Assembly (NCBI RefSeq): GCF_027889715.1
Contig: NZ_JAPJZH010000004.1
Location: 248,001 to 312,000, forward strand
DNA from: Allohoeflea poritis
Lineage (GTDB): Bacteria; Pseudomonadota; Alphaproteobacteria; Rhizobiales; Rhizobiaceae
Direction: 5' to 3'
Length of the DNA: 64,000 bases
The notes beneath the pieces were generated by a model. The model did no database searches. It was not told the origin of the DNA and saw only the letters and a program-made list of their open reading frames with translations. A program made the translations under genes and the position numbers. Shown here in pieces: positions 28,510 to 51,209 of this stretch (position 1 is its first letter; each line of letters starts with the position of its first letter).

Positions 28510-29691
28510 TCAGACCTCCCAGCGAACCGGCAGGGATACGGGTCCGCGAAAGACCCAGCCCTTCATGATTGCCGGCCGGTCTTCGTCAAGCCGCAGTTTC
28601 GTCAAACGGTTGAACAGCTTCGGAACGGCGATCTCGCCGACCATCTGCCGCGCGACCCATGTGCCGGCGCAGAAATGCGGTCCGGCGCCGAAACCGAGAT
28701 GCGCGTGGCGGTCGCGGAAAACGTCGTAGGCATCCGGATCGGAAAAACGCGTCTCGTCGCGATTGGCAGCGCCGACGCAGATGCCGAGCTGATCGCCTTG
28801 CTTGAGCTGTGTGTCGCCCAGCACGGTGTCGCGCGTGACCCGCCGGGGATACATGCCGATGGGCGAGACCCACCGAACCGCCTCCTCGAAAGCGGTGCGG
28901 TACAGTTTCGGATCGGCCGTGACGCGGGCGCGCTGGTCCGGGTTGAGCAGGAGCCCGTAGACGGTGGTGAGGATCGAATCGCGCGGCTCGTTCAGGCCAC
29001 CGCCGATAATCACCTTGATATTGGCGCGGATCTGCTCCACCGAGTGCGGATGCTCCGCATGCAGCATCGAAGACAGGATCGTCGGGCCCGGCCGGTTACG
29101 GTGATGGTCGAGCACGGCATCGATCGCCGCGTTCACGGCCTGCGATGCCGCGGCGGCCCTCTGTGCCGTGTCCGGCTCGGTTCCATAGTTGCTGACGCCA
29201 TCCATCAGGGCCTGCGACCAGGCGGCGAGATCCTGCCAGGAAACATCCTTGAAACCGATCATCTCAGCAAGGCACAGGGAGGCCATCGGCGCGGCGAAGC
29301 TGCCGAACAGGTCCGTTTCGCCGCCATTCGCGAAGCCGTCGATCAGCCGCTCGGCGATCCCGTCGAACACCGGGGTCCATTGGTTTTTGACGACACCCGG
29401 CCGGAATGACGGCTCGATCGCCTTGCGCTCCACCTGGTGGTCCTCGTCGTCCTTGCGCATCAGGGAATGGCCCATGACCTTGTTCATCAGCGAGCCGGGA
29501 TTGGTCGAGGCAAAGCGTTTATGATCGCGCTCGATGGTCATGATGTCTTCGAAACGGGTGACGAGATTGATGCGCGCATCGCTGACCCAGACCGCCGAAG
29601 CGGCTTCGCGCATGCGGCGGAAGCTCGGATAGGGATCCGCCGTCAGCGCGGCGAGGGAAATATCGTCCATGACGGGAACAGGTGAGGCCAT
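28510..29691 (-). CDS. Cytochrome P450
   Basis: This 393-residue soluble bacterial P450 has the heme-binding loop FGAGPHFCAGTWVAR with ligand Cys341, an ExxR segment in FEEAVRW, and an I-helix reading IGGGLNEPRDSI. The I-helix lacks the usual acid-threonine pair and carries Asn-Glu-Pro-Arg-Asp instead, a variant I recall from some proteobacterial P450s. The substrate is unknown. It forms a two-gene unit with the ferredoxin, and the LysR regulator is divergent. Confidence 0.94.
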   Translation of the reverse strand: MASPVPVMDDISLAALTADPYPSFRRMREAASAVWVSDARINLVTRFEDIMTIERDHKRFASTNPGSLMNKVMGHSLMRKDDEDHQVERKAIEPSFRPGVVKNQWTPVFDGIAERLIDGFANGGETDLFGSFAAPMASLCLAEMIGFKDVSWQDLAAWSQALMDGVSNYGTEPDTAQRAAAASQAVNAAIDAVLDHHRNRPGPTILSSMLHAEHPHSVEQIRANIKVIIGGGLNEPRDSILTTVYGLLLNPDQRARVTADPKLYRTAFEEAVRWVSPIGMYPRRVTRDTVLGDTQLKQGDQLGICVGAANRDETRFSDPDAYDVFRDRHAHLGFGAGPHFCAGTWVARQMVGEIAVPKLFNRLTKLRLDEDRPAIMKGWVFRGPVSLPVRWEV

Positions 29692-36891: not shown

Positions 36892-37836
36892 CTATTGCGC
36901 CGCCACGATCCGGTCTTCCGGATAGATCTCTTCGCGGGCACGTGCCTGGCACAGGTCGAAGACCAGCCAGGCGGCGGCCATATTGCCCATATGGATTGCC
37001 GTGTTGGTGTTCTGATGCCCGCCATAGGTCAAATCGCCGGCGGCGAAGATGCCGCGGCGCCCGGTGCGGTAGCATTCGTCGATCTTGACATATCCGTCGT
37101 CGCTGATCGGCAGGTCGAGCGACTTCACCAGCTCACCCTGGGTCTGGTGGGGCCAGACAAGCAGGATATCGCGCGGGACGCGCCGGCCGGAGCGCAGCAC
37201 GACATGTGTCAGTTTTTCGCCGTCTCCCTCGAGCGTCTCGATCCGGCCGGGAATGAGCCGGATGCCAAGCGCCTCGATGGCCTCGGCGCGTTCCGGCGGG
37301 ACATCGATCCCCGGTTCGATGAACATGACAAGGTCATCGGTCCAGTTGCGGTAGATTTCGGCGGCGGCGAGAATTTCCGGCCGATGCACGTAAATGCCCC
37401 AGGACTGATTGCGAACCTCGTAGCCCTGGCAGAACGGGCAATTGATCACCGAGGCGCCCCAAAAATTCTTCAGGCCCTCGATGTTGGGATAAAGGTCCAC
37501 CATTCCGGTCGTCATCAGCAGGCGCCTGGCGCGATAGGACGAGCCGCCCTGGGTCGAGAGCACAAATCCTTCGTCTTCCTCGACGACCTTGGCAATCTCG
37601 GCCGATTTCAGATCCGCGTAGCCATAGGGCCGGATGTTGGCTGCGATGCTCTCTCGAACATCCTCGGGCTTCGCCAGATCCATGGACGGAAAGGCGCCGA
37701 CATGCGGCGATGCCGCATTCCTGGCAGGAATGGGCGAATCAAAGACTATGGTGCGCATCATCGATCGCGACAATGTCAAAGCCGCCGCCAGACCCGCCGG
37801 TCCGCCACCGATGATCGCAACCTCGTATTCCGTCAT
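36892..37836 (-). CDS. Thioredoxin-reductase-like FAD/NAD(P) oxidoreductase
   Basis: The 314-residue flavoprotein has an N-terminal FAD-binding GGGPAGLAAAL motif (residues 10-20), a redox disulfide CPFC at Cys133/Cys136 and a C-terminal FAD motif GIFAAGDLTYGG. This is the layout of thioredoxin reductase, but the NADPH-domain glycine motif is hard to see (SWGIYVHRPE in its place), so the electron donor may differ. AAGGAGG precedes ATG 37836. It converges on dctM with a 27-bp gap; no thioredoxin gene is near. Confidence 0.88.
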   Translation of the reverse strand: MTEYEVAIIGGGPAGLAAALTLSRSMMRTIVFDSPIPARNAASPHVGAFPSMDLAKPEDVRESIAANIRPYGYADLKSAEIAKVVEEDEGFVLSTQGGSSYRARRLLMTTGMVDLYPNIEGLKNFWGASVINCPFCQGYEVRNQSWGIYVHRPEILAAAEIYRNWTDDLVMFIEPGIDVPPERAEAIEALGIRLIPGRIETLEGDGEKLTHVVLRSGRRVPRDILLVWPHQTQGELVKSLDLPISDDGYVKIDECYRTGRRGIFAAGDLTYGGHQNTNTAIHMGNMAAAWLVFDLCQARAREEIYPEDRIVAAQ

Positions 37837-37971
37837 GGTGAGGACCTCCTTGACGTCATTGCAGGTGCGTGATTCGAAACTAGGATAGCATTGAGAACGC
37901 ACAAAGTGCGGCCCGCCTGTGGATAACGGGGATTGCGGGACTAAACGGTGCTTAAAGGCCTCATTCGGCCG

Positions 37972-40960: not shown

Positions 40961-41653
40961 TTAATAAATGCCTGATTGCGCCAGCTGTCGAAGGCGTTCC
41001 AGATCCAGGACTTCGATCTTGCGCCTGCCGGAACTGACGATGCCGAGCTTGGACAGCCGCGCCAGTTCCTTGCTGACCGCCTCGCGGTGGGTGCTCAGCT
41101 TGGTGGCGATCTGGTAGTGAGACGGCGCCGGTTCGATCAGGTGCTTGCCGTCCGCATTGCCGGCATCGACCATGCGCAGGAGTTCGGTGCAGATGCGCTG
41201 ATGCACCGCCATCGTGCTGTATTCGAACATGCGGTCCGTCAGGCTGCGGTTTTTGCGCACCAGAAGCTCCGCCATTTTCAGCCCGATCACCGGGTAGTCA
41301 ACGATCAGGGCGCGGAACTGGGTGGAGTCCATGCGGGCGAGATAGCTGTCTTCCAGGGCCTCCACGGCCGCCGAGCGGGGCCGCTGGTCGATCGCGGAAA
41401 ACTCGCCGAAGACCTGGCCGGCCGAGATTTCCGCGTAGGTGACCTCTTTTCCCTCGATGGAATAGCCCTTTGCGGCGACGCTTCCTTCGACAATGAAATA
41501 GGCATCGGTGGTCAGCTGATTCTGGCTGATCACCTCCTGTCCCTTCGAAACGCGGATCCACTCGCAGTTTTCGCCGATTTCATTAAGCTGAACCACATCG
41601 AGATCCGCCAGCAAGTCGACGAGATACAAAAGATTTCTTGCGCCCGATTTCAT
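40961..41653 (-). CDS. CRP/FNR family transcriptional regulator with cyclic-nucleotide pocket
   Basis: The 230-residue regulator has an N-terminal cyclic-nucleotide-binding beta roll (about 15-125) and a C-terminal winged HTH (about 150-225). The phosphate-binding cassette VFGEFSAIDQRPRSAAVEA keeps Glu84, Arg93 and Ser94, which contact cAMP in E. coli CRP. There is no N-terminal cysteine cluster as in FNR. The recognition helix STHREAVSKEL keeps the Arg-Glu pair that reads TGTGA. The frame stays open far upstream, but that is antisense to the protease gene; ATG 41653 has GGTGGAA before it. Confidence 0.9.
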   Translation of the reverse strand: MKSGARNLLYLVDLLADLDVVQLNEIGENCEWIRVSKGQEVISQNQLTTDAYFIVEGSVAAKGYSIEGKEVTYAEISAGQVFGEFSAIDQRPRSAAVEALEDSYLARMDSTQFRALIVDYPVIGLKMAELLVRKNRSLTDRMFEYSTMAVHQRICTELLRMVDAGNADGKHLIEPAPSHYQIATKLSTHREAVSKELARLSKLGIVSSGRRKIEVLDLERLRQLAQSGIY

Positions 41654-41765
41654 CAATTCCACCCTTGGGCCTGAAGCCGGATCAAGAGTAGCGCCATTAC
41701 CCTGAACTTGCAGCAAGTTTTTCGCCCGGTGGCAAGTTTGCAACGTCGCCGATCCGATCGGCCTC

Positions 41766-41785
41766 AATGTGGGTAATCTCACATT
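41766..41785. promoter_or_regulatory. CRP-type operator in the divergent promoter
   Basis: AATGTGGGTAATCTCACATT is a perfect AATGTG-N8-CACATT palindrome and differs from TGTGA-N6-TCACA at one core base. It lies 113 bp upstream of the crp-type gene and 97 bp upstream of the protease start, so it could control both. Confidence 0.75.
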
Positions 41786-41861
41786 TGCGCTGCCCGCGTT
41801 GTGCCATAGCTCGCCCTTGTGATGCCGACCGCAAGAATCGGCGTACGGAATGTGAGGTGGA

Positions 41862-41885
41862 ATGGCAGCCGGAACCAAGCAATGA
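41862..41885 (+). other. Possible 7-codon leader ORF coupled to the protease gene
   Basis: GAGGTGG followed by ATG opens a short frame reading MAAGTKQ. Its TGA overlaps the protease ATG at 41882 as ATGA. The Shine-Dalgarno here is better than the one directly before the protease start. It may be chance. Confidence 0.3.
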
Positions 41886-43540
41886 TGCCGATCAGAACCC
41901 TCAATCACTTGCTGGTCAGGCCGGAGGTGAGCCGCAATCCGACGGCCGGTGAAACGTGCCGGAGCGCGTTGCCCGCCGATGAACTCGGATTTGTCCTGCA
42001 ATATGCGGTCAAGCCCGATCTGAGCCGCGCGCGCAGGGAATTGGCGGCGATCCTCGATATGCTCGATTTCACACTCGACCCGCTGTTTCCGCGCAGCGCC
42101 GACGAACTGGCCCATTTCGTTGTCCTGAGGTTTCCCGGCGTTCCGGCGGGGCGGGCGTCCGATGCGCTTTTTTCCATTGCCTATGAACTGCGCGACAAGA
42201 TGGACCTTATCTCCTGCGAGCCTTGCATCGGCGAGCACATCATGACCGTTCCCGAGCCGCCGGACGGGAAAAGCCAAGGCGGTGCGGTTGCGGGAAGCCT
42301 TTGCTGGGTCAACGGGCCGGCGCCCGCGGACAAGAAGTGGGCGCTGGAGAATACGCGCGTCGTGTCGGCTTGGCACCTTTCGCCGGATCAGGGCAAGGGA
42401 ATCTTCATCGCTCAGCCGGATACGGGTATCGCCCGGCACGATCAGATCGAATCCGAAAGCCTGCGCCTCGACCTTGCAGCCGACGTCCTGGAGGGCGGCG
42501 GCGATCCCACGGATCCGCTGGATCCGGAACTGGCCGGTGCCGGTCATGGGAGCGGCATTGCAAGTGTCGCCGTCGGACGCAATTCCGATGAGATGAGCGG
42601 TGCCGCGCCAGGGGCGCATCTGGTCCCGATCCGCTGTGTGCACGACGTGCGCATCGTCAATCCCGCACCGATCGCGCGGGCAGTCAACCACGCGCGGCTG
42701 TCGGGTTGCCATATTATCTCCCTGAGCCTGGGCGGGCTCGGCAGCGAAGCGCTGCGGAAGGCCATCGCGAAGGCCGTCGAGGCAAATCTCATTGTCGTCG
42801 CGGCTGCGGGGAACTGTATCGGGCTGGCTGTCTACCCGGCCCGCTACAGCGACGTGATCGCGGTCGGCGGAACGAATGTCAACGACCGCAAATGGCGCGG
42901 CAGCTGCGCCGGGCCGACGGTTGATCTTGCCGCGCCGGCCGAAATGGTGTGGCGCGCCAAGCACGACGTGAATGATGGTGGCCGGCCGTTCGTTGCGGAA
43001 GGGCAAGGCACGTCCTATTCGGCGGCGCTGGTTTCGGGAATAGCGGCCCTCTGGCTTGACCGGCACGGCAGGGACAACCTTATCGCCGAAGCGCATAGGC
43101 GCGGCGTGCCGCTTCAGCAGCTCTTCAGGGCGGCGGCTTGTCACACGGCGCGGGTTCCCACGGGCTGGAACAGCAGTCGCATGGGTGCCGGTATCATTGA
43201 TGCCGAGGCTCTGCTGCGTCAGAACCCGGCGGATATCCCGATCGAGCAACACGACCACGAACAGGAGACGGCGGACCATACGGATATCCAGCGCCTGGTT
43301 TTCGAGGTGACACGGCGCAAGCCCGCAGACGATAGGTTCGACTGGTCGCGCTACGGCGCGGAAATCGCCAATCTGGCGTTGCGGCTGGCGCATGTCAGGG
43401 CGCAGTGGAACGGCATAACCCGGCAGGACGGCGGTCGGCGGATTGCCGTTTCGGGCGCGCTGGAACAGGCTGTCCGGCGATCCGGAGACCCGGCGCTGGA
43501 AGCTTTGATGGAGAGCTTCCAGGGTATTTTGAACGAATGA
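41882..43540 (+). CDS. S8 family (subtilisin-like) serine peptidase
   Basis: The 552-residue protein has a complete subtilisin triad: Asp180 in AQPDTGI, His222 in GAGHGSGIA and Ser378 in GQGTSYSAALVSG, with the oxyanion-region AAAGN near residue 315. About 150 residues of unknown fold precede the catalytic domain and about 110 follow it. There is no signal peptide, so it probably acts in the cytoplasm. The start is uncertain (41819-41885 are options); ATG 41882 is chosen because of the overlap with a short leader. It is the first gene of the protease/277-aa/DyP-P450 cluster. Confidence 0.9.
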   Translation: MMPIRTLNHLLVRPEVSRNPTAGETCRSALPADELGFVLQYAVKPDLSRARRELAAILDMLDFTLDPLFPRSADELAHFVVLRFPGVPAGRASDALFSIAYELRDKMDLISCEPCIGEHIMTVPEPPDGKSQGGAVAGSLCWVNGPAPADKKWALENTRVVSAWHLSPDQGKGIFIAQPDTGIARHDQIESESLRLDLAADVLEGGGDPTDPLDPELAGAGHGSGIASVAVGRNSDEMSGAAPGAHLVPIRCVHDVRIVNPAPIARAVNHARLSGCHIISLSLGGLGSEALRKAIAKAVEANLIVVAAAGNCIGLAVYPARYSDVIAVGGTNVNDRKWRGSCAGPTVDLAAPAEMVWRAKHDVNDGGRPFVAEGQGTSYSAALVSGIAALWLDRHGRDNLIAEAHRRGVPLQQLFRAAACHTARVPTGWNSSRMGAGIIDAEALLRQNPADIPIEQHDHEQETADHTDIQRLVFEVTRRKPADDRFDWSRYGAEIANLALRLAHVRAQWNGITRQDGGRRIAVSGALEQAVRRSGDPALEALMESFQGILNE

Positions 43541-43630
43541 GGAATTGCCTGTTTGCATCCGCCGTATACGGCTATTGTTGAAATGCGAGATTGCTTGCCC
43601 GGCGACTGATATTATTTGAGGGGAGATATT

Positions 43631-44464
43631 ATGGAACGCGAGCTGTTGGACTGGTCGATGTCCGCAACCATGGGCGGCGTCACCGAAATCGCCGTGATGT
43701 CGCCGATCATCCGGGGGCGAGCCCCCGGCGAGAGACTGACCTACGAGGAGAAGCTGCGGCGCGTCATTGAATCGATCGCCACCCGTGCGGATCGCGGCAT
43801 TCCCCATCAGCTCAACACGATTTCAAGCATCCATTTCGGCCGGATGATGATTATCCGTCCGGAACAATATCTGACCAATTCCAGATCGGACGATGTCGAC
43901 TATTACGATGCCAAGGGCTCAACCGGCGGGCCGCAAGGCAGTTTCAACGTCCCGAGGCCCATGGACGAGTTCGAGATCAGCGTGCTCGGCACAGACGGCA
44001 ACATCATCGATGCGGGCGCATGGGGAAACACAGCGGTTTCCGACAGGCCCGGATTCCATTCCTGGCTGCTTACGATCGTGTCCTTCGACGGGGACCTGAA
44101 AGTCTATTTCAGGGACATCGCGCAATTTCTCGCGCGTGATTTCGACGATGTTTTCGTCAATTGCGTCGATTTTCCATCGACGCGGGATTTTGAGAAGTTC
44201 TGGCAGTGGATCCGGCGCTACCAGGTGCCGGTCGATCTGTTTCTTTGCGCCTATCCCGACCTAACGGTCGCCCGGATCAAGCAACTGGAAGACTTCAAGC
44301 GATGTTTCGACGCTTTTGTCGACAAGGTGCACTCGCCGACGGGCCGCAAGGTGGAGAACATGGAGGAGCTGTTCGACGAGTTCCTGCGCGAGACCGGACA
44401 ATATGCCTCCGATTTTCCGACACCGGGCGGCACATATCGCATGAAGAGCGGTAAGGGAGCCTGA
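43631..44464 (+). CDS. Unrecognised 277-residue protein of the DyP-P450 operon
   Basis: No family is recognised with confidence. The protein is soluble, without signal peptide or membrane segment. Segments such as VTEIAVMSPI, SSIHFGRMMII and VSFDGDLKVYFRDIAQFLA suggest alternating strands and helices of a ferredoxin-like or dimeric alpha-beta fold, with similarity in style to DyP-associated domains; this is an impression. The region RDFEKFWQWIRRYQVPVDLF and AYPDLTVARIKQLE may be a second half. GAGGGGAGA precedes ATG 43631. The stop is only 2 bp before the DyP-P450 start, so the products probably act together. Confidence 0.7.
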   Translation: MERELLDWSMSATMGGVTEIAVMSPIIRGRAPGERLTYEEKLRRVIESIATRADRGIPHQLNTISSIHFGRMMIIRPEQYLTNSRSDDVDYYDAKGSTGGPQGSFNVPRPMDEFEISVLGTDGNIIDAGAWGNTAVSDRPGFHSWLLTIVSFDGDLKVYFRDIAQFLARDFDDVFVNCVDFPSTRDFEKFWQWIRRYQVPVDLFLCAYPDLTVARIKQLEDFKRCFDAFVDKVHSPTGRKVENMEELFDEFLRETGQYASDFPTPGGTYRMKSGKGA

Positions 44465-44466
44465 TC

Positions 44467-47400
44467 ATGACCAACACATATGCTCAAGCACCCGACCATG
44501 CCGGGTCCGATACCGCCGCACGCATCCAGGCGCATCTCGGCCAGCCGTCGAAATTCGCCAACGGCAAGACACGAAACTGGTCGCTGTTCGTTTTTTTCCG
44601 CATTCTCAGCAAGACCGAGATGGAGACCTCGCGGGCGCTTTTCGCCAGGCTTGCAAAGGAGGTGCTTTCTTCTAAACCCGCGAAAAGAGGATCGGCCGGA
44701 GCAACCGATTATGGCAGCGAACTTGCCTCGCCGCACCTTGCCAGATCAGCAATGCCCGGGGCAGCGGCGCCGGGTGCCGAGGCGGCGGCGCTGCCGGAAG
44801 ATCCGCTGGCCGAAAACCTTGCCTGCGACGAATTCAGGGCCTGGCTGAAGCTCCTTTCGACCGGCGACCACGGTGAGCTGCTGAAACAACTGGATGGTTT
44901 TCTTCAGTTGGATGCGCGCAAGGCGCCCAGCGCGAAGATAATGAAACTGGTGAGCACGTTTGCCGGAGCTCTCAGAAAGGGCAACGGCATTTTCGGCGCG
45001 ATCGAGCTGGCTCAGAAGAAATTCAGCCGCGGTCTCGGCAATGAACGCGACCTCGTCGCGGTGATCCTGGCGCTGACGGTGTTCCTCAAGAGCAGAGATC
45101 CCAGGATCCGCAGGGCCGTTGCCAGAATCTTCGACCTGAGCGCTTTCGGCAAAGACGCGGGCGAGGCGGGCGTCAACGTGGTTTCGCACCGGCTTGTCGC
45201 TCTGTGCGCCTACGAGCTCTTGCGCCAGACCAAGCTGGCGCGCGATTCAGCGGCAGAGGCCGGGGACGCCTCGCCGGTGCGCAATGAGCGGGCCGAGGCC
45301 GGTTCCGCCGCTCACGCCGACGGCGAGGGATTGAAAAAACAGGTCTTTGACCCGGTTCCCGTCAACATAGCCTTCACTTTTCCCGGGCTGGAAAAGCTGA
45401 ATATCGATGCGAACACGCTCCGTTCCTTCCCGGATGTGTTCAAGGAAGGCATGGCGGCCCGTGCCAAACGGCTCGGCGATACCGGTGCGAGCGCTCCGGA
45501 AAACTGGGACGGCGAACTCGGACTGAAAAACGTTCATGGCTACTTCACCGGCGGTTTCCAGGTCGGCGACGTCATTGGCGGCGGCAAGTGGGACATGGGT
45601 CCCGAGGAAAGCTGGGAAGCGCTGCGCCGGGACATTGACGATTTCAACCACAGAAACGGCGAGCGCGGAAAGGCGCTGCGCACGATGCTGGGCGGCCTGT
45701 TCCGGTTCCTCGGCATGGAGATCGTCCATATCGAGCTGGGACAGGATCCCTATTCGGTCGAGAACGGCAGGGCCGTCACCTCCGGCTACCGCAAAGAGCA
45801 TTTCGGCTTCCGGGACGGTATCAGCCAGCCCTTTGTCGACATGAAGCTCGGCAAACCGATGCCAGGCGGCGCCACGCCCGGACCCAACGGAACCTGGGCT
45901 CCGGTTGCGCCCGGCGAGATCTATCTGGGCTTTCCCGACGAGGACGGCAATTACGCCAGGCAACCGGCCAACAAGGTGCTGCGCGACGGCGCGACATTCG
46001 TTGTCTTCCGCAAGCTCGAGCAGGACGTCGCAGGATTTCGCGATTTTCTCGAAAAACAGCGTCCCGGCGACGCGCAGGCGCAGACCAAGCTGGCGGCGCA
46101 ATTCATGGGGCGTTGGCACAACGGAACGCCGCTTGTGCTGCAGCCGGACAGCCCGCGCCCCCTCGGACCGGAAAGCGACCGCAAGATCAACGACTTCCTT
46201 TTTGTCAGGGACGATCCGAACGGTGACAGATGCCCGCTCGGCTCGCATGTGCGCCGCACCAATCCGCGTGATATCGGCGGACGCAACGACGTGCGCCGCC
46301 ACAGGATATTAAGGCGCGGCATCGGCTATGGCGGTCCGCTCATGGCGGATGGATCGCGCGGAGACGGCAAGAAGCGCGGGCTGTTGTTCATCGCAGCGAA
46401 CGCACGCCTCGATCTCCAGTTCGAGGTCATACAGGCCGACTGGATGAATGGCGGCGAGTTCCTCGGCCAGGCCGGGCTGGACCGATGCCCGGTCGCCGGC
46501 ACCAATTCGGGCGGTCTTGAAGACCGTTTCCACGAATCGGGCGCTGCGGTTCCCATCACGCATATTCCGAGTTTCGTGACGACACGCGGCGGTGACTATT
46601 TCTTTGCGCCGAGCAAGGAAGCGATCGCCGGCATGGCATCGCGCGACCGGTTCGAACTGGATCCGTCGGAACTGCTCTCGCAGGGTCACAGCATGAGCGA
46701 TCCGGAAACGCCGGGTCTGTTCACGGAGACCCGTATCCGCGGCTTTGTCGGCCGGTTCCTAAAGGACAAGAGGGTTTCGCTTATCCGCGCGAAGCTGCCG
46801 GATATTCCGACCGATTCGCCCTATAATGACGGCACGACGCTGCATGAACCGTCCGGCCTGGACCATCCGGTTTGTTTTGTCGGCAGGCACGGCGACGTCG
46901 CTGATGTTCTGAAACTTGTCGACGACAAAGGGGACGGCCGGTTCTCGGTCGACCACTACAGCCTTGCTGGACGACGGGTCCTTCGCGGCGACGACATGCT
47001 GATCGGTACGGCGCAGTTCCCGGCGGACAGCGGGAAACGCCGTAAACTGCTCTATACAATCCTGATGGAAGCATGGAAGGCGCTCGATGCTGCCCATCGG
47101 GCCGGCAATGCGGGCACCGGAGTCCGTGGCCGCCTGGAAGATATCGTTTCCACACGCATCGAAATGGCGCTGGCGCGAACCGGAGACAGCCACCGGATCG
47201 ACCTCGTCCGCGACCTTGCAAGCGACGTCTCCTATGCCGTTCTCAAGGATCTGCTCGGGACGCCGGGACCGGCCTGGATCACGGAACTGGGAATTTCGCT
47301 GCCCTTCGCGCGCCAGCATGTCGGTCATCTTCATCCCGACTGGCTGAGTGTTTCAAAGGGCAAGATGCCGCAGGATCCGGGCCTTGCGACCATGCAGATC

Positions 47401-48273
47401 TGGTCGATCCTGACGCTTGGCGACGTCTTCGGAAACGTCCTGTCCTACAAGACGCTGATGCACCTGTCCGAACAGGCGGGGGCGGAGTTGCTCAACCATC
47501 TCAACCGGCTGATCATGGACGCATGGTCCGCCAGGCCCTCCAGGACACGCACGCTGGTCGATGCGTTCATCGCCATCGAGGACCAGATGTTGCGCGACAA
47601 CAAGGGTTATACGAGAGCCCAGTATCATGCGGATGTGGCGGCGATCCTGTTCGAGCTGATCGCTTCGACAATGGCCGCCATACCGTCAACCTTCGGCAAT
47701 ATCATGGATACGCTGCTGACGTTCCGGATCAGCCTTCCGAGCCTGTTCGATCTGATCAGGAAGCAGGGCCTGGAACCGGACGGTGCGGATAAATGCGGAT
47801 ATTCGCTGGCGACCCAAATCATCTATGAGTCCGAAAGGCTGCAACCCAATTTCAAGCTCCTGATGCGCCGTTGCGTCAAAGGAACCCAATTGGAAAGCGG
47901 TGCGCGGCTCGATGCCGGCGAATGGGTTGCGGCACTTATTCCCGCCGCCAATCTGGACGGGTCGGTCTTCGATGACCCGTACCGCTTCTCGCTGTATCCG
48001 TTTGTCCAGGAACATCCGCAACGGTCGCTTGAGAAGTATCTGCTGTTCGGCAGCGCCACGAATTCCGTCGGCACAGATGTCGATGCGCGGGTCGGCGCAC
48101 GCCATTGCTGGGGCCGCGATGCCATCGCCCTTTATATACTGGAGCGGTGCCTGTTGGCCGCAGGCCGGCTCGAGGGGCTTCGCAAAGTCGCGGGCGAGGC
48201 AGGCGAAATGCAGGAGATTGCCAAGGCGGCCACCGGCCTTTGGGGACGCTTCAACCAGCTCCGGCCGCGATAG
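44467..48273 (+). CDS. DyP-type heme peroxidase / cytochrome P450-like fusion protein
   Basis: The 1268-residue protein joins two heme domains. Residues 1 to about 290 are helical and unrecognised, with a disordered Ala/Glu-rich linker. A DyP domain (about 295-760) begins VNIAFTFPGLEKL and has GFRDG at 447-451 with catalytic Asp450, and proximal heme ligand His594 in LGSHVRRTNPRD. A P450-like domain (about 830-1268) has the ExxR motif ESER at 1121-1124 and heme-ligand Cys1214 in VGARHCWGR. The usual Phe of the heme loop is absent, and the I-helix-like segment LIASTMAAIPSTFGN lacks the acid-threonine pair for oxygen activation. There is no signal peptide. The layout recalls fungal dioxygenase-P450 fusions that make oxylipins; the substrate here is unknown. 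Confidence 0.88.
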   Translation: MTNTYAQAPDHAGSDTAARIQAHLGQPSKFANGKTRNWSLFVFFRILSKTEMETSRALFARLAKEVLSSKPAKRGSAGATDYGSELASPHLARSAMPGAAAPGAEAAALPEDPLAENLACDEFRAWLKLLSTGDHGELLKQLDGFLQLDARKAPSAKIMKLVSTFAGALRKGNGIFGAIELAQKKFSRGLGNERDLVAVILALTVFLKSRDPRIRRAVARIFDLSAFGKDAGEAGVNVVSHRLVALCAYELLRQTKLARDSAAEAGDASPVRNERAEAGSAAHADGEGLKKQVFDPVPVNIAFTFPGLEKLNIDANTLRSFPDVFKEGMAARAKRLGDTGASAPENWDGELGLKNVHGYFTGGFQVGDVIGGGKWDMGPEESWEALRRDIDDFNHRNGERGKALRTMLGGLFRFLGMEIVHIELGQDPYSVENGRAVTSGYRKEHFGFRDGISQPFVDMKLGKPMPGGATPGPNGTWAPVAPGEIYLGFPDEDGNYARQPANKVLRDGATFVVFRKLEQDVAGFRDFLEKQRPGDAQAQTKLAAQFMGRWHNGTPLVLQPDSPRPLGPESDRKINDFLFVRDDPNGDRCPLGSHVRRTNPRDIGGRNDVRRHRILRRGIGYGGPLMADGSRGDGKKRGLLFIAANARLDLQFEVIQADWMNGGEFLGQAGLDRCPVAGTNSGGLEDRFHESGAAVPITHIPSFVTTRGGDYFFAPSKEAIAGMASRDRFELDPSELLSQGHSMSDPETPGLFTETRIRGFVGRFLKDKRVSLIRAKLPDIPTDSPYNDGTTLHEPSGLDHPVCFVGRHGDVADVLKLVDDKGDGRFSVDHYSLAGRRVLRGDDMLIGTAQFPADSGKRRKLLYTILMEAWKALDAAHRAGNAGTGVRGRLEDIVSTRIEMALARTGDSHRIDLVRDLASDVSYAVLKDLLGTPGPAWITELGISLPFARQHVGHLHPDWLSVSKGKMPQDPGLATMQIWSILTLGDVFGNVLSYKTLMHLSEQAGAELLNHLNRLIMDAWSARPSRTRTLVDAFIAIEDQMLRDNKGYTRAQYHADVAAILFELIASTMAAIPSTFGNIMDTLLTFRISLPSLFDLIRKQGLEPDGADKCGYSLATQIIYESERLQPNFKLLMRRCVKGTQLESGARLDAGEWVAALIPAANLDGSVFDDPYRFSLYPFVQEHPQRSLEKYLLFGSATNSVGTDVDARVGARHCWGRDAIALYILERCLLAAGRLEGLRKVAGEAGEMQEIAKAATGLWGRFNQLRPR

Positions 48274-48284
48274 TAAGACACGCT

Positions 48285-51209
48285 CTATACCAGCTGCTTG
48301 AAACCGTGCCTGTCGCACAGCGTCCTGTGCTCATCGATATCCGGCTGTATCAGCGGGCTGTCGGACTTGATCGCCATGGCGAGCTTGGCCCTGATGGCCA
48401 GTCCCTGAACAATCAGACCCGGATTGTTGATGCTGCGGCCGATCTCGATGGCCTGGTCGATCGCCGGAAGGCAGCGCTCGACGGCGCCGGACCGGAAGAG
48501 CGCTTCCGCATAGCCGGCGTAAAGATAATATATCTCCAGCCTGCCGGTGCGCAGGTGAAGCGCTTTCCTGAAGCAGTCATCAACGCGTTCTATGGCCTCC
48601 TCGGCGCGACCGTTGCGCGCCAGGGCCGTCGCCAGAAGACCCGTGATATGGGGTTTCGGCGCGTCATAGCCGTGCTGCTCGATCAGGTCCATCGTGGTTT
48701 CCAGGCACGCGACGGCTTCGTCGGTCCGTTCCATCATGATGAGGACCCTTCCGAGTGCGTTGAGCGCCACGACCTCGGTATAGGGATCCTTGCACGATCG
48801 CGAGATATCAAGCGCCTTCTGAGCGTGTTGAAGGCTTTCTTCATACGCTCCGATGTCGATCAGAAACCACCCCAGAAATGCGTGTGAAATGGCGCCTGGA
48901 ATGCCGGCTGCTCCAAGCCGCTTGGTCTCAAGGTCGCCGGAGAGCCGCTGACACAGGTCGCGCGTGAAGTCGAGTGCTTCATCCATGTTGCCCATGGCGT
49001 GGTTCAGGACCGCAAGCAGGTGCTGCGCGGCAAAGATGTGCGGCAGGCTATCCAGTTCCCGCGCCATCTGGAGCGCTTCATCGACAGTCCTTATGCCGTC
49101 TTCATAGCGGCCTTCAAACCAGTCGACCATGCCCAGATTGCACTTGGCCGCGCATATCTGGTTGGTCCGGTTCTGCTTTTTCGCCAGAGCCAGTACCTTC
49201 GGCAGATGATCGTGCATCTTGGAGAACTCGCCGAGCTGCAGCATCGTGGTGCAGACCATGATCGTCAGATCGACAAATGCTTCTTCGGCCGGTTCACCGA
49301 TTCGATCGATGCAATCGAGTGCGCGGTCAAACAGAAGCTGAAGCGATTTGCCGGCATAATTTTTCATGGCGCCGCGGGCCGCCTTCGACAAATACTCCAG
49401 CGCCAACCGGTCATCGCCGGCTGCCTCGGCGTGATACGCAAGTCTCTCATACTGGCCACCGAGATCGTCATAGGTGGCGGTAATCACGTCGATGGCCGTA
49501 AGGTGTATGTCCTTGCGCCGCGCGCGCGGCACCGTGTTCTGGCAGGCTTCGGCGATGATGGCATGGCAGAAACGTACGGAGCGGCCGGAAATCACTCTGG
49601 TGATGGCCAGGTGATTAAGCTGGGCGAGGTTTGCCATCAGCTCCTCGGTGCCGATGCCAAGCACCTTGCGGGCGAAATCCAGTTCAACCTGCTCACCAAG
49701 GATGCTGAGTGATTGCGCGCAGTGTTTGGCGGCGCGCGGAAGCCGGTTGAGCCGGGCATGGATCATGGACTGAACGCCCTGCGGAATGGATTGCAGGGGA
49801 TCGACGCCCTGCGCATCCACGGAACAGACAAGCTGCTCAAGCACGAAGGGGATGCCGTCGGCCTGGTCGAGCGCCTTTTCTATGTCCAGCTCATCCGGAA
49901 TGTTCTTCGTCCACAGGCGTCGCGCCAAGAGGCGCATCTTGTCGCGCGACATCGGCTCCAGGCGCAAGACGGTGTCGGCAATCTGCTGCGCGTCGAAGGC
50001 GGCTTCCGGGCGCCCTGTCAGCAGCAGGTAAAGCGCGTGGCCGTCATTGCCGCCGCAAAGCAGCTCAAGACACAGCTGGCTTTCCGGATCGACCAGATGC
50101 AGGTCCTCAAGAAGCAGCAGTGTGCGGTCCTTGAGGGCCAGCCGCGCGAAGATATCGACGAGCCCCTGAGCAATCTGCTTGAGGGACAGTCGCGGGCCGG
50201 ATTGCGCCGAATCGCTGCGCCCGTCGGACAGGAGGATCGCGTGAAGGGCGCCGCCACCGTCCGCCTCAAAGCCGGCATCGCAAAAGGCAGCCTCGATCTG
50301 TGATTGCGTTGCCTGCTCGTCCAGTTTCAGGGCGTCAAGAATGAGGCTGCGAAAGACGGCGAAAGGTGTCGTGCGCTTTTGAACATCGCCACGGTAAACC
50401 AGCAATCGGTCGACCGCGTTCTGCGACAGTGCCTCATCGATGGCCGCGGCGGCGAGACGGCTCTTGCCGATGCCGGGCTCGCCAATGATCGCAAAGGCTG
50501 CCTTGGCGTGCGAATTGCGTGTAATGGATTTCCGCAATATCGCCCGTTCCATGTCACGGCCGACAATCGGAAAGGCATATTCGTGGAGTGCGTCGTTCGC
50601 ACGGCGCCGCTTCGGCGGGGCGCTGAGCTGGTAGACCGTGGAATTGATCTCCTCCAAAATCGCCAGATCGGGCCGCGCCGTGTGTTCGAAATCCAGCCTG
50701 CAAAGCTCCAGTGTTTCCGCGCTGAGGAGAATCTGTCCCGGTTGCGCGCTCTTTTCCAGGCGCGCGGCGAGGTGCACGGTGCCGCCGACGAGATCGATCT
50801 GCGAGCCGCGCTCGAGTTCGAGGTGGCGCAGGCCCACAAGCCCCGAATGGATGCCGACCCGAAACTGGACCTCGTTCTTTTCGGGATCGAGTATGGGACT
50901 GTCGCCGCCGGTGAAATGCTGGATGTTCCAGGCCGCCTCGCAGGCCCGGTCTGCGTGGTCTTCCAGCGAATCGGGCCAGCCGAACACGGCAACGCCGCCG
51001 TCGCCCGCAAAACTGACCAGAAGCCCGCCGGCGCGTTCCACCGAGTGACGGATGTGGGCGAGGACATCATCTACCATGAGTTGTGCGTCATCCGGGTCGA
51101 CGGAGGCTATTCGGCTTGTTGAGCTCACGGCGTCGACGACCAGGACGGTCACGACGCTGCGTTCTGGATACGCCATCAAATGCAATGCCTGCGCCCCTAC
51201 GTCCGGCAT
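48285..51209 (-). CDS. Class III nucleotide cyclase domain / AAA ATPase / TPR protein
   Basis: The 974-residue protein starts with a class III cyclase domain (about 15-195): metal-binding Asp26 in VVDAVSST, Asp70 in FAGDGGVAVFG and Arg150 in AARLE. The Asn that normally precedes it (VNxAARL) is His146, so activity may be changed or lost. An AAA/NTPase module follows with P-loop GEPGIGKS at 243-250 and LLLLEDLHLVD as Walker B, then about 350 residues of TPR-like helices. GAGGTG precedes ATG 51209. It converges on the DyP-P450 gene with 11 bp between the stops. Confidence 0.88.
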   Translation of the reverse strand: MPDVGAQALHLMAYPERSVVTVLVVDAVSSTSRIASVDPDDAQLMVDDVLAHIRHSVERAGGLLVSFAGDGGVAVFGWPDSLEDHADRACEAAWNIQHFTGGDSPILDPEKNEVQFRVGIHSGLVGLRHLELERGSQIDLVGGTVHLAARLEKSAQPGQILLSAETLELCRLDFEHTARPDLAILEEINSTVYQLSAPPKRRRANDALHEYAFPIVGRDMERAILRKSITRNSHAKAAFAIIGEPGIGKSRLAAAAIDEALSQNAVDRLLVYRGDVQKRTTPFAVFRSLILDALKLDEQATQSQIEAAFCDAGFEADGGGALHAILLSDGRSDSAQSGPRLSLKQIAQGLVDIFARLALKDRTLLLLEDLHLVDPESQLCLELLCGGNDGHALYLLLTGRPEAAFDAQQIADTVLRLEPMSRDKMRLLARRLWTKNIPDELDIEKALDQADGIPFVLEQLVCSVDAQGVDPLQSIPQGVQSMIHARLNRLPRAAKHCAQSLSILGEQVELDFARKVLGIGTEELMANLAQLNHLAITRVISGRSVRFCHAIIAEACQNTVPRARRKDIHLTAIDVITATYDDLGGQYERLAYHAEAAGDDRLALEYLSKAARGAMKNYAGKSLQLLFDRALDCIDRIGEPAEEAFVDLTIMVCTTMLQLGEFSKMHDHLPKVLALAKKQNRTNQICAAKCNLGMVDWFEGRYEDGIRTVDEALQMARELDSLPHIFAAQHLLAVLNHAMGNMDEALDFTRDLCQRLSGDLETKRLGAAGIPGAISHAFLGWFLIDIGAYEESLQHAQKALDISRSCKDPYTEVVALNALGRVLIMMERTDEAVACLETTMDLIEQHGYDAPKPHITGLLATALARNGRAEEAIERVDDCFRKALHLRTGRLEIYYLYAGYAEALFRSGAVERCLPAIDQAIEIGRSINNPGLIVQGLAIRAKLAMAIKSDSPLIQPDIDEHRTLCDRHGFKQLV

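Follow-up and report, generated by a model that had tools for sequence, protein, structure and literature searches.

Here, we describe a bacterial protein that carries a DyP-type peroxidase and a cytochrome P450 in one chain, encoded within a 64,000-nucleotide stretch of the Allohoeflea poritis genome (contig NZ_JAPJZH010000004.1, positions 248,001 to 312,000; hereafter the window). We give roughly even odds (about 0.5) to the reading of its locus as coding for a three-module, two-haem peroxide enzyme under Crp control, with a P450 that probably works without redox partners. The fusion had been predicted from the letters of the window alone. Comparison with other genomes now shows that three modules, the third being a domain that we call MID, recur in two orders, of which the fusion represents one, in the predicted context of a Crp regulator with its operator and a cyclase-like gene. 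The fusion and its two parts are as follows:

44467..48273, plus strand: DyP-P450 fusion protein, 1268 amino acids; a single ATG-started open reading frame, kept in seven genomes
44467..46656, plus strand: DyP part, residues ~1-730, with D450, H594, and R613
46786..48270, plus strand: P450 part, residues 774-1268, with ExxR at 1121-1124 and Cys1214; I-helix acid column without an acid

The original prediction held that one reading frame carries the haem-site residues of both enzymes and that this would be an independent two-haem design of bacteria. The named residues are all where it placed them: D450 in FGFRDG (from residue 446) and H594 in GSHVRR (from 592) in the peroxidase half, and E1121 and R1124 in YESER (from 1120) and C1214 in RHCWGRD (from 1212) in the P450 half. 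Both residue sets are retained in 7 of 7 members, which supports a two-haem design at the level of sequence. The single-frame bacterial fusion is itself borne out, being conserved across seven genomes from four families, and the recurrence of the same order in other genomes, which the prediction had proposed to look for, is seen in six of these besides the window's own. (Genomes are given by handles in G and loci by handles in L; the six are G199, which is locus L009, G085, G064, G366, G677, and G772.) The chain thus reads DyP then P450 in 7 of 7 genomes. Because both domains lie in one frame in all seven, the fusion is no assembly join, and a frameshift or misjoin between the halves is excluded. 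The idea that the fused open frame is an artefact could appeal to the single-sequence P450 score, which is below the Pfam cut-off; the orthologs refute it, and its probability is negligible. The fusion of G772 (L082) is shorter at its N terminus (1015 amino acids).

DyP-P450 fusions are rare and scattered over four families. A whole-protein search of genome contigs returned one match, in Nitratireductor sp. XY-223 (83%). Genomes were also drawn at several taxonomic ranks; these draws are samples and overlap one another. The fusion is present in 3 of 8 genomes of the genus draw (the window's own, G085, and G199). In the family draw, where 45 of 199 genomes gave any match, it is present in the window's own genome, G085 (67%), and G064 (52%). 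A profile of the P450 half found G366 among 397 genomes of the order draw, G677 and G772 among 385 of the class draw, and only the window's own genome among 398 of the phylum draw. We saw no indication of DyP-P450 fusions on plasmids. Neither MID nor the P450 half gave a tblastn match at E 1e-3 among 72,556 plasmid records; the full fusion protein matched 81 of them, but no match spanned 80% of the protein and the best 40 fell in the DyP region only.

The peroxidase half is clearly identified as a DyP by its sequence. Alignment places a first strand at residues ~36-48, a variable insertion at ~50-290, and the remainder of the barrel with the catalytic half at 290-730. A Pfam search, which the original prediction had suggested, came out in part as expected: the window protein scores above the cut-off for DyP_N (36.2 bits, cut-off 27.5), but below it for Dyp_perox_C (18.5 bits, cut-off 20) and for p450 when taken alone. 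These three are the Pfam families found in it, and the peroxidase half is, as predicted, a DyP and not the animal-type dioxygenase of the fungal enzyme PpoA. NCBIfam TIGR01413 matches residues 443-718 (E 8.6e-22; 77.9 bits, below its cut-off of 100.5), and PDB peroxidases match this half with E values down to 1e-49. The DyP Asp (GxxDG), the proximal His, and the distal Arg are kept in 7 of 7 DyP-P450 proteins and in 28 of 28 proteins of the other order, P450-MID-DyP. The Asp/His/Arg set and the GFRDG motif are shared with DyP-type peroxidases (PDB 8re3, “peroxidase, putative”; 7anv, ancestral D-type; 4au9), from which the fusion differs in the long variable insertion of its N-terminal half and in the attached P450.

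The remainder of the chain is a P450 on evidence of sequence that we take as decisive, with the structure consistent. The window protein alone scores 17.3 bits against Pfam p450 (PF00067; cut-off 22.8); among its orthologs, L074 (24.0) is above the cut-off, and L073 (12.9) and L009 (13.9) are below. A profile of the seven P450 halves (A3) matches 411 distinct PDB sequences at E ≤ 0.01, with a best E of 1.3e-16, and the two alignments inspected include the Cys loop. The best 60 of these 411 matches are named as P450s or bear names that we take to be those of P450s. Structure prediction, also suggested at the outset, gave a mixed result for residues 774-1268. The AlphaFold2 model is poor (mean predicted local distance difference test score, pLDDT, 57.6; predicted TM score, pTM, 0.63). 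In a Foldseek search with it, the best 50 of 649 matches are P450s (probability 0.98-1.00, E 1.3e-3 to 1.4e-2, TM 0.32-0.48), including CalO2, OleP, and a Rothia decarboxylase, which we presume to be P450s; none of the 649 reaches E ≤ 0.001. The absence of a P450 fold, which the original prediction named as a refutation, is not what this low-confidence model shows.

The active site suggests an unusual P450. ExxR and the haem-thiolate Cys are retained in 36 of 36 P450s of these systems, that of Skermanella included. The I-helix acid normally helps protonate iron-bound O2, and in its aligned column Asp or Glu is found in 0 of 36 system P450s versus 25 of 31 ordinary P450s, a set that includes one fragment (L090) with a gap there. 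Pro fills this column in 29 of 29 cases among the 28 fused P450s of the other order and that of Skermanella. An I helix without the acid-alcohol pair is a likeness to CYP152 peroxygenases such as OleT, where, according to excerpts of PMC5377825, Arg-Pro replaces the pair; that CYP152 lacks the pair is also described in excerpts of PMC10988616. No CYP152 is named among the best 60 PDB matches of the A3 profile. The unusual I helix could alternatively mark a noncatalytic scaffold or activator, and among NCBIfam models TIGR04515 matches the P450 half best (E 1.4e-9). The score of that match is 37.8 against a cut-off of 343, however, and the P450-derived glycosyltransferase activators that would be its model are not known to have the haem Cys retained here throughout, making a scaffold very unlikely.

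The third module is coded immediately ahead of the fusion:

43616..44464, plus strand: MID protein, 282 amino acids; ends 2 nt before the fusion; a homolog of the middle domain in P450-MID-DyP proteins

A MID gene precedes the DyP-P450 gene in six of the seven genomes, and at L081, the remaining one, the contig ends at this point. No Pfam family was found for the window MID or for the four relatives or middle regions scanned, and searches against PDB sequences and by Foldseek gave best E values of 0.14 and 1.2, with some alpha-beta barrel proteins among these insignificant matches. Its homology to the middle module of the P450-MID-DyP proteins is supported by hhalign (probability 99.4, E 3e-21).

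P450-MID-DyP proteins, of about 1400-1640 amino acids, occur at 28 loci. The DyP part led to 26 matches in 25 genomes of the family draw, in open frames of 1398-1574 amino acids, and 26 of 26 read P450-MID-DyP; two further loci are plasmid-borne, in Novosphingobium aromaticivorans and Sulfitobacter pontiacus. The 35 stretches fetched with flanks comprise 26 P450-MID-DyP loci, 2 DyP-P450 loci, and 7 DyPs without a fused P450 in view. The 28 loci are L040-L047 and L055-L072 from the family plus L084 and L087, with L082 excluded as DyP-P450. The P450s of this order exceed the Pfam cut-off in the two tested (48.2 and 47.5 bits). Proteins annotated for a single domain, as “Dyp-type peroxidase domain-containing protein” (WP_011907039.1) or “cytochrome P450” (WP_180829462.1), have the same three modules as the window system, but in the order P450-MID-DyP and with MID and hydrophobic segments inside the chain. 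In a simple hydropathy scan, every one of these 28 frames shows one or more hydrophobic segments after the P450 and before MID (L070 and L084 borderline), and this order may therefore be membrane-anchored. The same scan detects none in the window fusion or MID, and borderline segments elsewhere in 4 of 7 DyP-P450 proteins. In Skermanella rosea, MID, DyP, and P450 are three adjacent genes. The simplest history would be that an old MID-DyP pair gained a P450, which was later fused at either end.

MID and DyP are met in other arrangements as well. Two tandem MID genes stand ahead of a DyP gene in Bradyrhizobium sp. CB82 (L088:5701-6984). On a Rhizobium leguminosarum plasmid (L089:3621-10859), MID and DyP form a chain that lacks a P450; a trypsin-like peptidase and a DNA/RNA non-specific endonuclease are encoded close by. 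L050:4856-10343 holds MID and DyP genes without P450, adjoined, as in the window, by a convergent cyclase-like/AAA/TPR gene.

The P450s of the two orders are probably akin by sequence. In a tree of 57 rows, from which 10 of the 29 other-order P450s were omitted as near-copies (8 in a second tree), both orders group together (SH-like approximate likelihood ratio test, SH-aLRT, 95), apart from 29 of 31 ordinary P450s. One exception, L090, is a fragment with 17% of columns filled that falls inside the group. The other, L110, is a weakly joined sister (75) with a normal AGVET motif, and the 3.4-kb stretch examined around it has no MID or DyP. The A3 profile matches 29 of 29 P450s of the other order and of Skermanella, with a median of 52 bits; of the ordinary P450s it matches 21 of 31 (medians 34 and 32 bits in two sets). 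Alignment of A3 with the other-order P450 profile (A4) by hhalign gives E 8.6e-31, a single comparison in which ordinary P450s were not included as a control. In the DyP tree, the DyP-P450 members form a clade (100), and the other-order DyPs cluster with those of Skermanella, R. leguminosarum, and L052 (87); L052 is tagged there as having no fused P450, and its contig starts inside the gene. A separate P450 of the window (28510-29691, minus strand; 393 amino acids; GGLNEPRD in the I helix), about 15 kb from the fusion, is placed among the ordinary P450s.

The enzyme genes are accompanied by a regulator, a predicted operator, and a cyclase-like gene:

40961..41680, minus strand: Crp/Fnr-family regulator (cNMP_binding and HTH_Crp_2), ~239 amino acids
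41768..41783, no strand assigned: Crp-type operator TGTGGGTAATCTCACA, with 1 mismatch to TGTGA-N6-TCACA, between the divergent Crp and S8 genes
48285..51209, minus strand: class III cyclase-like, AAA_16 ATPase, and TPR protein, 974 amino acids, convergent with the fusion

The predicted site at 41768, with the Crp gene adjacent, is the sole one with ≤1 mismatch in the window. A perfect Crp-type site occupies the equivalent position in L009 and L074, and in L081 a perfect site lies beside the Crp gene, between it and the cyclase-like gene. A Crp gene is found beside the fusion in 5 of 7 DyP-P450 loci, and the operator beside that gene in 4 of these 5; the two stretches without a Crp gene (L073 and L082) have no operator. 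The other order repeats this association, with a Crp gene beside the fusion in 23 of 26 family loci. Of the 28 P450-MID-DyP genes, 23 have a site with ≤1 mismatch in the 350 bp that precede the start of the P450 domain, against a background in these loci of 15 sites in 484,911 bp. It is present at 23 of 23 loci with a Crp gene in the fetched stretch and at 0 of 5 without (L041, L047, L071, L084, and L087; Fisher 1e-5, which overstates independence because the loci are related). The Crp genes' own upstream stretches contain a site in 6 of 29 cases. The 29 Crp proteins examined share a GE...R[ST]A cassette and, within the recognition helix, an RE pair, to which we assign their presumed usual roles. 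A cyclase-like/AAA/TPR gene is present at 6 of 7 DyP-P450 loci, and a cyclase/TPR gene at 24 of 26 family P450-MID-DyP loci, with L041, L047, and L071 matched by the C-terminal TPR part only. Other-order cyclase-like domains mostly retain the motif Asn and Arg; here, too, we assume the usual roles for the motif residues (Asn, Lys, and Arg). A second Crp-type site (1 mismatch) is seen just past the 3′ end of the Crp gene at L009:4401-4416 and L074:5056-5071.

In the reading that we favor, MID and DyP would form the core, with MID as a stable partner, and the DyP haem would react with H2O2 or an organic peroxide. The P450 would act by the peroxide shunt or by hydroperoxide rearrangement, taking as its substrate either that of the DyP or the DyP product. 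Because an acid-less P450 would work in this manner, it would need no ferredoxin or reductase. The neighboring cyclic nucleotide (cNMP)-type Crp protein would switch transcription via the TGTGA-N6-TCACA operator, and the adjacent cyclase-like/TPR protein is a candidate upstream sensor. A fuller version, to which we give somewhat less than even odds, is a self-contained system, in both orders and of bacterial origin independent of the fungal oxylipin synthases. Here, a cyclase-like/TPR sensor and a cNMP-binding Crp protein would induce a two-haem MID-DyP-P450 enzyme for the formation or breakdown of a specific small molecule derived from a peroxide, with no need of electron-transfer partners.

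Several observations weigh against a Crp-regulated peroxide enzyme. Loss of the acid is no proof of peroxide use, and the likeness to CYP152 is partial: the seven DyP-P450 members lack its Arg-Pro dipeptide and are fused to DyP, while the 29 other P450s have Pro without a preceding Arg. Both AlphaFold2 models made, from 6-7 sequences, were weak. MID is found beside, or fused to, a DyP without a fused P450 in L048, L049, L050, L054, Nostoc, Bradyrhizobium, and R. leguminosarum. The other-order P450 profile ranks ordinary P450s (medians 63 and 50 bits) over the DyP-P450 ones (median 33, best 138), and for this reason P450 kinship is probable rather than certain. The DyPs of the two orders are not joined in the DyP tree, which is evidence against a single fused ancestor. 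As to regulation, L080 has a Crp regulator yet no site with ≤1 mismatch, and when up to 2 mismatches are allowed the window shows no enrichment of Crp sites (10, versus a mean of 14.9 in shuffles). A search for FNR-type sites gave 22, versus a mean of 17 in shuffles, and led no further. In L041 and L071, which have no regulator in the stretch, a site does stand shortly before the cyclase/TPR gene, and these loci may therefore depend on a Crp protein encoded elsewhere. The cyclase-like domains on the DyP-P450 side (window, L009, L074, L080, and L081) have His or Ser for the usual Asn and no Lys, which makes it doubtful that they synthesize a nucleotide.

A further such point is a Pyr_redox_2 flavoprotein encoded at 36892-37902 (minus strand), 6.6 kb from the fusion start. 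It is kept in L074 (71% identical) and is a conceivable reductase, although it does not adjoin the fusion. It would suit an ordinary monooxygenase P450 with redox partners encoded elsewhere, beside which the DyP would merely clear leaked H2O2; some P450s do function without the canonical acid. However, the acid is lost in every system P450 of both orders, no ferredoxin family was found among the 15 window proteins scanned, and the Crp gene and others separate the flavoprotein from the fusion. Among the stretches of six relatives, which differ in reach, the flavoprotein is present in L074 only. We regard an ordinary monooxygenase as an unlikely account of these P450s.

In the fungal dioxygenase-P450 (DOX-CYP) proteins and oomycete CYP5619, the partner of the P450 is cyclooxygenase-related, whereas here it is a DyP, an unrelated family. 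Excerpts of PMC5919972 describe DOX-CYP (PpoA/CYP6001 and linoleate diol synthases) and CYP5619 as combining a haem peroxidase or dioxygenase with a P450 in one chain, in both orders. According to excerpts of PMC13049297, the P450 partners in fungal DOX-CYP are self-sufficient, with no need for electron transport. The descriptions excerpted from these two papers include nothing that corresponds to MID, to the Crp operator, or to the cyclase-like gene. Peroxidase-P450 fusions are thus already known, and what appears to be new, judging from the domain assignments, is DyP as the peroxidase half, unlike that of fungal PpoA. No DyP-P450 or P450-DyP protein is named in the titles and abstract openings of the papers listed among the matches in the open-licence literature.

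These fungal enzymes also suggest, by analogy, an oxylipin or signal synthase like PpoA, in which the DyP half would form a lipid hydroperoxide and the P450 half would isomerize it. The two-haem layout resembles that of DOX-CYP, where the P450 acts without an electron-transport chain (excerpts of PMC13049297), and both orders are known from eukaryotic fusions too (CYP6001 and CYP5619; excerpts of PMC5919972), a parallel that we read as a likeness of layout. The acid-less I helix would be in keeping with such a synthase, as would the hydrophobic segments between P450 and MID in all 28 P450-MID-DyP frames, the presence of genes for acyl-CoA dehydrogenase and MaoC in the vicinity of the Novosphingobium locus, and a PDB match to CYP74A that covers the Cys region but falls short of significance (E 0.13). 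Lipid genes were not seen among the window genes scanned, a scan that was no systematic neighbor survey for them, and DyPs are not known to act as fatty-acid dioxygenases. We give oxylipin synthesis an outside chance.

If a DyP-based peroxide enzyme is indeed encoded here, it would represent a second route to a single chain that joins a haem peroxidase with a P450, built on an unrelated peroxidase. Its active site suggests peroxide-driven over NAD(P)H-driven chemistry. The DyP-linked P450s, together with a partner domain not covered by Pfam, would be concrete proteins for asking how P450s abandon O2 activation, and the predicted Crp operator would offer a direct handle on the timing of the system's production.

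One gene remains between the operator and MID:

41819..43540, plus strand: S8 subtilase-family protein, start codon uncertain; possible first gene of an operon

An S8 gene oriented like MID and the fusion is found in 3 of 7 fusion loci, all of one genus. We also considered a defence or conflict system: PADLOC has no match for the fusion or MID, and its matches among the neighbors are to subtilase, TPR, Pycsar-cyclase, and TIR-effector models (the last via the cNMP-binding part) and to a few weaker ones. An apparent 948-amino-acid open reading frame at 40961-43807 (minus strand) was rejected as one gene, its last ~239 codons being the Crp gene and the remaining ~700 lying antisense to the S8 gene; naive annotation of it would yield a giant fusion. 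Near one P450-MID-DyP locus, another S8-domain frame reaches 1255 amino acids (L063:8092-11856).

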